A stretch of DNA of 64,000 nucleotides from assembly GCA_026392355.1 (NCBI GenBank), contig JAPLCF010000043.1, positions 62,001 through 126,000 on the forward strand. The letters are read 5' to 3'. Shown here piece by piece: positions 21,779 to 59,741 of the stretch (positions within the stretch are counted from its first letter, which is position 1; each line of letters begins with the position of its first letter). The notes beneath the pieces are model-generated. The model saw only the letters and a list, made by a program, of their open reading frames with translations. It ran no database searches and had not been told where the DNA came from. Origin of the DNA: Actinomycetota bacterium. Its GTDB lineage: Bacteria > Actinomycetota > Thermoleophilia > Gaiellales > F1-60-MAGs149. The position numbers and the translations under genes are program-made.

Positions 21779-22285
21779 CTACTTGGCGGCGATGCGCTTC
21801 TCGATCGCCGCGTCGATGCGGGCGTCAGTCGCCTCGTCATCGAGCTTCAGTGCGGCGGCGAGCTCGCGGGCGTAGGCCTTGCGAACCTTCTCCATCAGCG
21901 TGCGCTGGCCATCGTTGAGCTTGCGCGTCTCGGCGGTGTCGACGAGCGAGGCGAGGACCTCGACCATGGCGTCGAGCTCGCCCTCGGCGAAGCGATCCTT
22001 GAGCAGGCGGCCGTCGCGGTTCCACGGGATCGCCTCCTCGTAGCCAGAGACGAGCGCCTCGAGCGAGCGCTCGGCGGCAGCCTTCGTCGTGACGAGGCGC
22101 AGACCGCGCTCAACGGCGCGGTCGAGCGGCACGGTGACGTTCATCTTGGAGTCGAGGACGAAGAGATCGACGACGGTGACCTTGTTCCCGAGCACGGTCT
22201 TCTCGCCGATGCCTTCGACGCGTGCGAAGCCCTCCGGCCCGAACACCACGGTCTTGCCCTTCTCGAACTGTGCCACCTTCGCCAT
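21779..22285 (-). CDS. carD: CarD-family transcriptional regulator
   Basis: 168 residues from ATG 22285 (GGAG five bases upstream). The N-terminal Tudor-like RNA polymerase-interaction domain shows FEKGKTVVFGPEGFARVEGIGEKTVLG. The C-terminal helical domain (SLEALVSG..EEAIPWNRDGRLLKDRF) carries the tryptophan that wedges into the upstream edge of the open promoter in mycobacterial CarD. The protein stabilises open complexes at rRNA and other promoters. It is divergent from a small membrane protein and heads an operon with the HhH-GPD gene. Confidence 0.9.
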   Translation of the reverse strand: MAKVAQFEKGKTVVFGPEGFARVEGIGEKTVLGNKVTVVDLFVLDSKMNVTVPLDRAVERGLRLVTTKAAAERSLEALVSGYEEAIPWNRDGRLLKDRFAEGELDAMVEVLASLVDTAETRKLNDGQRTLMEKVRKAYARELAAALKLDDEATDARIDAAIEKRIAAK

Positions 22286-38222: not shown

Positions 38223-38253
38223 CTTCCTATTGGGGTCCGACCCCAATAGGAAG
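38223..38253. terminator. Long palindrome between convergent genes
   Basis: Two perfect 15-base arms, CTTCCTATTGGGGTC and its complement, flank one central base, 16 bases before the end of the first LapA-like gene. It can fold on either strand and probably terminates both. A related copy lies at 38619-38645 after the second LapA-like gene. Confidence 0.7.
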
Positions 38254-38269
38254 GTGATCCCCGCCGTCG

Positions 38270-41311: not shown

Positions 41312-41407
41312 GGGACAGAATGGATCCGGATCCATTCTGTCCCAGGATCGTCATGGAGCGCTGATTCCGCGCTCTGGGACAGTTTGGATCCGGATCCATT
41401 CTGTCCC
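41312..41407. repeat. Pair of GGATCC-core palindromes between convergent genes
   Basis: Two 32-bp palindromes at 41312-41343 and 41376-41407. The first is perfect: GGGACAGAATGGATCC followed by its complement. The second has GGGACAGTTTGGATCC as left arm, with one non-pairing position. They lie 3 bases after the ureohydrolase stop and 3 bases before the pabA stop. The core GGATCCGGATCC is the same as in the pair at 26547-26613. Confidence 0.8.
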
Positions 41408-51725: not shown

Positions 51726-52319
51726 ATGGCGATCACGTCCCTCGTCCGCGCCTCGCTCCACGACGCGCCCGAGCCGTGCCGCACGTGCACGTGGTGGCAG
51801 GGCGGCGCGCGCACAGTGGACAAGGAACGCTGGGCCGCTGGCGTCGAAGGGCGGTTTGGTGCGTGGGGGATGCTCTACCGCGAGGACGAGCGCACCGTCG
51901 GCATCGTGCAGTACGGGCCGTCGGCCGACTTTGGCTACGCGCGGCGCTTGCCGGCCGGGCCGCCCTCGCGCGATGCCGTGCTTGTGACGTGCGCACTGAT
52001 CGAGCCGTCCGCAGGCCCTTGGGTTGTGCAGCGGCTGCTCCTCGCCGTCGCCGGCGAGACGCGCGACCGTGGCTTGATTGCGCTCGAGGCGTTCGCCACA
52101 CCGATCGAGCGCCCGGACGCGCCGCACCTCGTGCCGCTGCCGCGTGCCGAGTTGGAGGAGATTGGCTTCGTCGCCATCCGCGAGGCTGGTGACATTGCGC
52201 TGATGCGGCTTGACCTCCGTGGGCTCATCACCGTGCCTGCCAGCAAGACATCCCTCCTCGACCGCGTGCGTGAGGAGATCGCCGAGCGGCGCGCGAAGCG
52301 CGTACCGGCGCGGTACTAG
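51726..52319 (+). CDS. GNAT-like protein, unknown substrate
   Basis: 197 residues. The middle (TVGIVQYGPSADFGYARRLPAG, ALIEPSAGPWVVQRLLLAVAGETRDRGLIALEAFAT) follows the beta4-alpha3 order of GNAT acetyltransferases, and a CRTCTWWQ motif near residue 18 may bind metal. The basic tail EIAERRAKRVPARY could bind nucleic acid. Assignment as a GNAT is tentative. The stop is followed at once by a strong hairpin. Confidence 0.55.
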   Translation: MAITSLVRASLHDAPEPCRTCTWWQGGARTVDKERWAAGVEGRFGAWGMLYREDERTVGIVQYGPSADFGYARRLPAGPPSRDAVLVTCALIEPSAGPWVVQRLLLAVAGETRDRGLIALEAFATPIERPDAPHLVPLPRAELEEIGFVAIREAGDIALMRLDLRGLITVPASKTSLLDRVREEIAERRAKRVPARY

Positions 52320-52680
52320 GGGCAGGCCAGTCGCCCCGAGTGGGGCGGCTGGGTCCCTGAGAGAGGAGAGAACGCAGGCTGCGCGGGCGGGACCACACGC
52401 AGCGCGGTGGAAAGCATCCGGCAGCCTGCATGAGGGAGCGTTGCGCCGGGTGGTTGGACTCGCTCAGTAGTTCAAGGGCGAAGTGGTGCGGGGGAGTACG
52501 TGGGGCACGGGCTCCAGTAGCCCAGCTCGCTGCGAGGTGGACAGTCACCAGCAGCCGTCCACGACGATGCGTTCTCCGGGGCCGGGAACGCCGCTCGACG
52601 TTCGCTGCGCCGGTGGTCTCCTACGACAGGCGGAGCACGGGGGTCAAAACCGGAGTCAGCATGGGCGCTTCCCCTCAACG
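52320..52680 (+). ncRNA. Candidate structured RNA, unknown family
   Basis: A 360-base stretch without a credible gene but dense with stems: 52327-52352; GCAGGCTGC 52374-52382 with 52421-52429 (9 bp); TTGGACT 52454-52460 with AGTTCAA 52469-52475; GGGCT 52509-52513 with AGCCC 52519-52523; GTGGAC 52537-52542 with GTCCAC 52557-52562; CGTTCTC with GGGAACG at 52570-52590. The bases GAGAACGC (52368-52375) can also pair with GCGTTCTC (52569-52576), closing the whole region. It lacks the conserved P4 core of RNase P and the tmRNA ends. High G+C makes chance stems common, so strand and extent are tentative. Confidence 0.4.
52327..52352 (+). terminator. Strong GC hairpin after the GNAT-like gene
   Basis: CCAGTCGCCCC, loop GAGT, GGGGCGGCTGG: an 11-bp stem with one G-T pair, 8 bases after the stop codon. 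No T-run follows. It can be a terminator or the first stem of the structured region to 52680. Confidence 0.6.
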
Positions 52681-52738
52681 TGATTGGAGCACCTACCAGC
52701 CAGCCGCGTGCACGGCCCGTCGCTCGAAGCTCGCTGGA

Positions 52739-53509
52739 CTATTGCAGGGTCTTCAGCGCCTCGATCGCATCTGGGTCGCCGAGTGCAGCGGCCTTCTGCC
52801 ACCACGACTCGGCCAATGCCAAGTCGCCCGCCTGCTTGGCCAGGAGGCCGAGTGCATACATCGACATCGAGTCGTCGAGCGCAGCAGCCTTCTGCCACCA
52901 CGATTCGGCCAGCTTGACGTCACCCGCCTCGTCCGCAATAGCCCCAAGGTCGTACATCGCCCTTGGGTCGCCAAGCGCAGCAGACTTCTGAAACCATGAC
53001 TCGGCGAGCTTCATGTCGCCCGCCCTCTTGGCAAGCAGGCCGAGGCGAAACATTGCGTTCGGGTCGTCAAGCGCAGCGGCCTTTTGCCACCACGCCTCGG
53101 CCACCTTCACGTCACCTTCAGAGTTGGCAAGAAAGGCGAGATTGTTCATCGCGTTGACGTTGTCGAGCGCGGTGGCCTTCTGCCACCACGACTTGGCCAA
53201 CTCCTCGTCGCCGTCCTGATCCGCACGCAAGGCGAGGACATTCATCGCCTCCGAATTGCCGAGCTCGGCCGCCTTGGTGCAGATCACCTTCGCAACAGAC
53301 CAGTCAGAGTTTCCCTGGGCGGCGATGCACGCAGCGTCGTCGGGCGCTGACGTCGCCACAGCCTGAGAGGTGGCTGTGTCGTCTGACGATGATCCACACG
53401 CAGCCACACCGACGCCCACGGTCCCCACCAGCACAATCAGCAGCAGACGACGCACCACCGAGAGCCGCTCTGTCGCTGTCTTCACGAAGTGCCCGAGGCT
53501 GCTCTGCAT
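52739..53509 (-). CDS. SEL1/TPR-repeat lipoprotein
   Basis: 256 residues. Signal peptide with lipobox: RRLLLIVLVGTVGVGVAACGSSSDD, so a lipid-anchored extracellular protein (Cys near residue 38). The rest is five to six 36-residue SEL1-like repeats of the form G-D-x-x-LAESWWQKAAALDDP-x-AM-x-x-LG-x-LA. Such solenoids bind partner proteins. Neighbouring repeats are very alike, also at the DNA level (108-bp period), so the copy number may vary between strains. It is isolated between two unusual non-coding stretches. Confidence 0.8.
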   Translation of the reverse strand: MQSSLGHFVKTATERLSVVRRLLLIVLVGTVGVGVAACGSSSDDTATSQAVATSAPDDAACIAAQGNSDWSVAKVICTKAAELGNSEAMNVLALRADQDGDEELAKSWWQKATALDNVNAMNNLAFLANSEGDVKVAEAWWQKAAALDDPNAMFRLGLLAKRAGDMKLAESWFQKSAALGDPRAMYDLGAIADEAGDVKLAESWWQKAAALDDSMSMYALGLLAKQAGDLALAESWWQKAAALGDPDAIEALKTLQ

Positions 53510-53604
53510 GCCTTCATTCCTTTTGGCGTGACGTCCGCATCAGTTGCAGGGGCTCCGAGGAGTCCCACCGCGGCTTCGAGGGTTGTGAGCATCGAAATCT
53601 TCAT
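53482..53604 (-). CDS. Possible 40-aa leader ORF upstream of the SEL1 gene
   Basis: ATG 53604 follows GAGAGAGCGATCTCGC, itself an inverted repeat. The product MKISMLTTLEAAVGLLGAPA... has a weakly hydrophobic start and its 3' end overlaps the SEL1 start by 28 bases in another frame. It might couple translation or be chance. Confidence 0.25.
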   Translation of the reverse strand: MKISMLTTLEAAVGLLGAPATDADVTPKGMKACRAASGTS

Positions 53605-53734
53605 GCGAGATCGCTCTCTCGTGGTGCGTTGACGGAGGCTCAAGGGTATCTGCCGGGATTGACCGGTGGGGGCTCCGATTCGACGTAGCGGGGCTGGCCC
53701 CGGCCGCATCAACGCGACCGACCGTGCCCGGACT

Positions 53735-54212
53735 TTACGGCGACTGCAACAGGAGTTCTGCGATGTCGGGCTTGATCAACGCACCGTTCCTCCGCTCTGT
53801 AGACGGAGAGGAGGTGTTGTCCGCGCTGCGCGCGGGCCGAGTTTCTAGGTGCGCTGGTTGTGGCTCACGATCGGCTACCCAAATGCTGCGCATTTGGGCC
53901 GATAGTTCCCCTCAATCTGCGCAAGGGCGACGCGTCGAACAGGTCGACATCGCCCGAGCGTCACTGGGAAGTGAGGAGCAATTCTGCGATGTCGGGCTTG
54001 ATCAACGCACCGTTCCTCCGCTCTGTTGACGGAGAGGAGGTGTTGTCCGCGCTGCGCGCGGGCCGTGTTTCTAGGTGCGCTGGTTGTGACTCACGATCGG
54101 CTACCCAAACGCTGCGCGTTTGGGCCGATAGTTCCCCTCAACCTCCGCAAGGGCTCCGCGTCGACCAGGTCGACATCGCCCGAGCGTTAGCGAGAGTTGA
54201 GTAGGAGTTCTG
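53735..54212. repeat. Two 226-bp tandem units fused to the asd 3' end
   Basis: Unit A (53761-53986) and unit B (53987-54212) align with no gap and about 19 mismatches, 9 of them in the last 28 bases. Read on the minus strand each unit ends like asd: DIAELLL plus three residues and a stop. The stops lie at 54187 (asd), 53961 and 53735, exactly 226 bp apart. The ELLL codons differ synonymously (CTC CTA CTC; TTG CTC CTC; CTC CTG TTG). Inside each unit CCCAAATGC-TGC-GCATTTGGG becomes CCCAAACGC-TGC-GCGTTTGGG, a compensatory pair. The remaining 53605-53734 holds a GGGGC..GCCCC hairpin and nothing else that I can name. Confidence 0.85.
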
Positions 54213-54252
54213 CGATGTCGACCGCGTTCGACGCGGCGCCCTTGCGGAGGTT
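54140..54252. repeat. Large imperfect palindrome across the asd stop codon
   Basis: Left arm 54140-54179 (AACCTCCGCAAGGGC ... GGTCGACATCGC) is the complement of 54212-54252 inside asd with about four differences; the 32-base loop contains the asd stop. A second inverted copy of the same asd segment is in unit A at 53914-53953. An asd transcript would end in this hairpin. Confidence 0.75.
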
Positions 54253-59375: not shown

Positions 59376-59499
59376 GTTGTGAGCCTACCAGCCGGTCGCG
59401 GGCACCACGCGACCTCCGCGGGCGCGAGGCCCGCGGAGGAGACGTAGCGGCCGTGCACCCTCCGTTGTGAGGAACCGGTCTGTCCGTTTCACCGGCCAA

Positions 59500-59600
59500 T
59501 CACTCCGATCAGGCGGAACCGCGGCGCACCGGCGGATTCTCTGAGTGCTGCTGCCTTCCGGCCCTGACACGGTTCGAGGTTGCCGATCGCGCGGGACCTG
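59500..59600 (-). ncRNA. ffs: Signal recognition particle RNA (4.5S), core hairpin
   Basis: The minus strand has GTCAGGGCCGGAAGGCAGCA (apex near 59557), the Ffh-binding motif with the GGAA tetraloop and the symmetric A-rich bulge. The arms pair down the stem: GATCGGC (59583-59589) with GCC-T-GATC (59507-59514), and AACC with GGTT. The gene sits 120 bases upstream of dnaX on the same strand. Further helices outside the core (59492-59666) suggest a longer RNA; see findings. The rest of the 366-base gap to 59741 has no gene. Confidence 0.88.
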
Positions 59601-59741
59601 ACCATCAACGCTCCTGGTGGTGCCACGTACTCCTTGTTCCCCCCGAGAGAGGGGATTGGTGCCCGGCTAAAGCGGATTGCCGGTCGAGGGAACCGCAAAC
59701 TCCCCGCCTAGCACGGCCATACGGGAGGGTAGACGAAAACG

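Follow-up and report, generated by a model that had tools for sequence, protein, structure and literature searches.

The intergenic region described here lies at 52320-52738 of the window (the whole 64,000-nt stretch of DNA that was analysed), between two convergent genes. The upstream gene, which the preliminary description of the locus called GNAT-like, gave no match in Pfam or NCBIfam; it is the last member of a co-directional plus-strand run that starts at ~45.5 kb, and its orthologues are present in four genomes of the same genus. A check of open reading frames found no credible gene in 52320-52738, which confirmed the earlier observation for 52320-52680. A coding reading of 52501-52738 was dropped because the mismatches against the related genome G011 are evenly spread across codon positions. 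A large bacterial SRP RNA (134.7 bits) is found on the minus strand at 59451-59716. Perfect palindromes were observed behind gene ends at ~38223-38255 (TTCCTATTGGGGTCCGACCCCAATAGGAA) and 41312-41343 (GGGACAGAATGGATCCGGATCCATTCTGTCCC), and the GGGACAGAATGGATCCGGATCCATTCTGTCCC palindrome (~41312-41343) recurs almost unchanged on the other strand. The features of the locus are as follows:

51726-52319, plus strand: upstream gene (197 aa, "GNAT-like"), its stop codon ending at 52319
52327-52352, plus strand: hairpin P2, an 11-bp stem CCAGTCGCCCC/GGGGCGGCTGG with a 4-nt loop, present in G011 and in the related genome G006 (two copies)
52353-52373, plus strand: purine-rich linker with CCTGAG, kept in all four copies
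52374-52429, plus strand: hairpin P1, comprising a 9-bp outer stem GCAGGCTGC/GCAGCCTGC, an inner helix, an internal loop and the apical hairpin CCACACGCAGCGCGGTGG
52439-52500, no strand assigned: fast-evolving boundary, 27% divergent from G011, where the conserved element stops
52441-52738, no strand assigned: remainder of the region first described and 3' flank of the lipoprotein gene, with structure at or below shuffle level (tested up to 52700)
52739-53509, minus strand: SEL1/TPR-repeat lipoprotein gene, convergent with the upstream gene and the core of a cassette
53855-53920, no strand assigned: asd-linked three-tier hairpin, copy 1, in a neighbouring array separate from P2 and P1
54081-54146, no strand assigned: asd-linked three-tier hairpin, copy 2, in the same neighbouring array

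Folding of the intergenic region

The preliminary description had proposed a new structured RNA of about 360 nt, closed by long-range pairs in the manner of RNase P. When the whole 361 nt of that proposal (52320-52680) were folded, its z-scores against dinucleotide shuffles were -1.51 on the plus strand and -1.10 on the minus strand. It contains 4 Watson-Crick helices of at least 7 bp compared with 5.6 in shuffles, and 47 compared with 52 when G-U pairs are included. Stems of 9-11 bp exist, without an excess over shuffles. The 9-bp long-distance pair (52368-52376 with 52568-52576) shares positions with the P1 stem, its direct competitor, and its pairing is disrupted in G011; the supposed closing pair (52434-52442 with 52664-52672) is altered there as well, with long-range pairing at chance level; with stem counts like those of shuffles and pairs that G011 does not conserve, the RNase P-like architecture found no support. 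Piecewise folding gave z = -3.74 for 52320-52440, which none of 200 shuffles equalled, z = +0.03 for 52441-52580 and z = +0.79 for 52561-52700. Since only 52320-52440 beats the shuffles, the structured part is ~120 nt rather than 360 nt, clearly better folded than its shuffled controls where the full region is just slightly so (z of -1.5).

No Rfam family (rnpB, tmRNA, SRP, 6S, introns and riboswitches) scored above the gathering threshold in the region, and matches with E up to 10 comprised a single chance match (E 3.1); the first description had seen no hallmark of rnpB, tmRNA, SRP, 6S or group I/II introns. An rnpB in disguise was ruled out: the true rnpB of this genome lies at G000:C9:592041-592386, and the sole likeness of the region to bacterial RNase P RNA (RF00010) is that it has several stems. 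Likenesses to attC sites, group II introns and T-boxes were considered as well, had no tool support and were dropped.

The structured element spans 52320-52438 and consists of hairpin P2, the linker and the two-tier hairpin P1. P2 starts 8 nt past the stop codon of the GNAT-like gene, its stem includes one U-G pair that is intact on the plus strand only, and 21 nt separate its end at 52352 from the start of P1 at 52374. The P1 part alone (52350-52440) reached a z-score of -3.24, and the three copies of the element that were folded gave -3.74, -4.57 and -3.28, and in each case none of 200 shuffles folded as well. The sequences that follow P2 (GTCCCTGAG) and P1 (ATGAGGGAG) are not U-tracts, and a simple terminator scan of the region found neither a match nor a U-tract. 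A promoter scan, which is blind to other promoter types, detected no sigma-70-like site in the region.

Distribution, conservation and strand polarity

In a DNA search that covered 60 relatives, G011 (contig CAINDT010000123.1, a lake MAG) matched over the full 420 nt at 91% identity, and G006 (CANJXE010000023.1) over the first 119 nt only, at 88%. A second, diverged copy was spotted by eye in G006 ~230 bp further on in the same orientation, and it was re-found by a covariance model whose training set also included that copy. In each of the three genomes, the element immediately follows the orthologous gene. G001 and G002 carry that gene without the element, although the G002 gene is the closest to that of the window (86.7% nucleotide identity, compared with 81.0% and 79.7%); the sequence behind it shows no unusual fold. 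The covariance model detected no other genome among 299 relatives and no other genus among 397 genomes of the phylum, in searches run with stricter filters that may have lost weak matches. When ~85,000 species were scanned with a degenerate pattern, the result was the same two MAGs and two distant matches (L070 and L071), which were rejected as chance because they had no covariance-model score. No plasmid, phage or viral-contig relatives were found. Each genome carries the element at a single locus rather than dispersed, and all genomes found to have it belong to a single genus of lake actinobacteria.

Compared with G011, 52320-52438 has diverged by ~6%, the adjoining 52439-52500 by 27% and the upstream gene by 19%. 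Because the inside is far less divergent than both the flank and the gene, these 120 nt are constrained, and the constraint stops abruptly on the 3' side. Even the diverged copy retains some of the unpaired bases, CCTGAG and ARAGCA among them. In the alignment of the four copies, 92.9% of the P1 cells are paired, and 5 of the 21 P1 pairs changed on both sides with pairing kept, compared with a shuffle mean of 1.7 (1 of 500 shuffles was as high), a test of modest power with a limited control, as two of the four sequences come from one genome. Shifted registers contained 0-1 such pairs. One example is the compensatory A-U to G-C switch at 52395/52408 between the genome of the window (G000) and G011, which accounts for two of the small number of P1 differences between them. 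Homologues in two genomes of the same genus and these double changes bear out a conserved, covarying structure without an Rfam family in the left third of the region first proposed, and the closed ~360-nt architecture falls away. Of 127 cells, 121 show standard pairing when read on the plus strand and 115 when read on the minus strand; G-U pairs occupy six cells on the plus strand and none on the minus strand. Since all six G-U pairs sit on the plus strand, the functional form is more likely the RNA of that strand, which would be the tail of the upstream message.

The lipoprotein cassette and the asd-end array

The window and G011 are ~95% identical over ~52,500-53,750, non-coding flanks included, whereas the core genes that flank this segment are ~80% identical; divergence is 5% in the segment compared with 19% in the neighbouring gene. 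Judged from these identities, ~52.5-53.75 kb is a recently exchanged lipoprotein cassette, with 52501 onward included. The earlier suggestion of an accessory island holds for this cassette but does not extend to the structured element, which is beyond the limits of the cassette and is also present in G006, a genome in which the cassette was not seen.

Tandem repeats of the asd 3' end occupy 53748-54219, each with a very conserved 66-nt hairpin, and they also occur at L055:1-383, L056, L065 and L067. The hairpin is present in 8 of 13 members of the genus, in several of those eight in tandem with the asd gene end, and all strong matches adjoin asd or an asd fragment. It exists as two types, which differ by coordinated changes (A-U/G-C and C-G/U-A) and a swapped G.A/A.G mismatch. 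This array is a stronger structured-element candidate than P2-P1. Each repeat carries an inverted copy (88-90%) of ~42 bp of the asd 3' end, at 53912-53952 and 54138-54178, and these copies could pair with the end of the asd mRNA. In G010:C28 (L067, 9828-11335), an FHA-domain gene and a zinc-ribbon/DUF4234-like gene lie between asd-end repeats, so the asd end resembles an insertion hotspot. In G005:C15, asd and a C-terminal asd fragment (554-1606 and 21847-22221; L065 and L066), with repeats after each, bracket ~20 kb of genes for peptide transport and metabolism; the ten ORFs scanned there included no integrase. Homology between P2/P1 and the array units was considered and dropped, as a profile of the units finds nothing (nhmmer best E 1.8); a covariance model gave weak matches (E 0.65 and 2.1), and there is one 32-bp BLAST match.

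A probable two-hairpin 3' end and its known counterparts

We consider that 52320-52438 is probably a two-hairpin 3'UTR that terminates transcription of the upstream genes or protects the 3' end of their message. On this reading it would be the untranslated tail behind the plus-strand gene run whose last member is the GNAT-like gene. Once polymerase passes the stop codon at 52319, the transcript would fold P2 and then, 21 nt on, the long P1, and the two GC-rich hairpins could stop transcription without a U-tract (the I-shaped type), block 3' exonucleases, or both. Read on the opposite strand, the hairpins could also halt polymerases that arrive from the lipoprotein/asd side, which is convergent; 52441-52738 would simply flank the lipoprotein gene at its 3' end and have no specific structure. 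From the position, folding, conservation, covariation and plus-strand polarity established here, we infer transcription, termination and protection. The location of P2 close behind the stop codon, the end of a co-directional run and the convergent next gene make termination or 3'-end protection the most likely role; the missing U-tract, the empty terminator scan, the 21-nt gap between the hairpins and the absence of the element from G002 count against it and keep our overall confidence moderate. Conservation of the unpaired CCTGAG and ARAGCA exceeds the need of a plain terminator and leaves room for a more specific role.

Such a role is taken further by a genus-specific structured regulatory RNA, either a small RNA derived from the 3'UTR or a cis-acting element whose conserved unpaired bases in P1 and the linker would bind a protein or ligand. 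The unpaired blocks conserved across copies, the fold retained in the second, diverged G006 copy, the sharp conservation boundary at 52438 and the lack of a matching known family all speak for this reading; the immediate 3'UTR position, the lack of a promoter-like site and the restriction to three genomes of one genus, among all those searched, leave it a minority possibility. That the 120 nt are a new genus-specific RNA of this kind (a small RNA, or a binder via CCTGAG and ARAGCA) able to duplicate locally is similarly tentative. Given that the element is the immediate 3'UTR, a terminator or 3' protector made of two hairpins is a simpler reading than a new ncRNA.

The two G006 copies, and the asd-end repeat array and exchanged cassettes in the same gap, are what a decayed or non-autonomous repeat would predict, namely REP/MITE-like palindromes that undergo local duplication between the GNAT-like gene and asd. 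We regard this as unlikely: one locus per genome falls short of the copy number of dispersed REP/MITE elements, no sequence homology to the array units was found, and the element is constrained rather than decaying. A new large (~360 nt) ncRNA with long-range closing pairs, as first proposed, is highly improbable, for although long-range complementarities of 8-10 bp are possible, stem counts are at shuffle level, the long-range pairs are broken in G011, structure after 52440 is not beyond chance and G006 retains the first 119 nt only.

Comparison with relatives thus shrinks an ncRNA candidate picked by eye to a conserved two-hairpin mRNA tail, which offers a clear example, from an uncultured genus of actinobacteria, of a 3' element that lacks a U-tract, covaries and is polarised by strand. 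Compared with a canonical intrinsic terminator, P2 offers the GC-rich hairpin near the stop codon (11 bp, at 8 nt) and lacks the U-tract after the stem. Gupta and Pal (2021; PMC8355165) report that, across 1060 species, some 50% of the best candidate hairpins that follow stop codons have no U stretch and that most identified terminator units are no further than 20 nt from the stop codon. They define hairpin clusters by a spacing under 15 nt and I-shaped terminators as U-less hairpins within ~80 nt of the stop codon. By these definitions, P2-P1 resembles I-shaped terminators and hairpin clusters in being GC-rich, U-less, within 20 nt of the stop codon and more than one hairpin in a row, whereas its spacing of 21 nt is too wide for a cluster. 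Unlike I-shaped terminators, it has conserved unpaired bases and a P1 that is long and two-tiered. In Bacillus cereus, terminator stems evolve by compensatory changes, and terminators shared by convergent genes are more conserved (PMC5381666). P2-P1 shares with these bidirectional terminators the convergent layout, compensatory stems and raised conservation; in contrast to them, it is U-less on both sides, its G-U pairs are intact on the plus strand only and its convergent gene varies by genome. Most likely, then, P2-P1 is a fairly ordinary element, a fresh instance of the already known hairpin 3'UTR.
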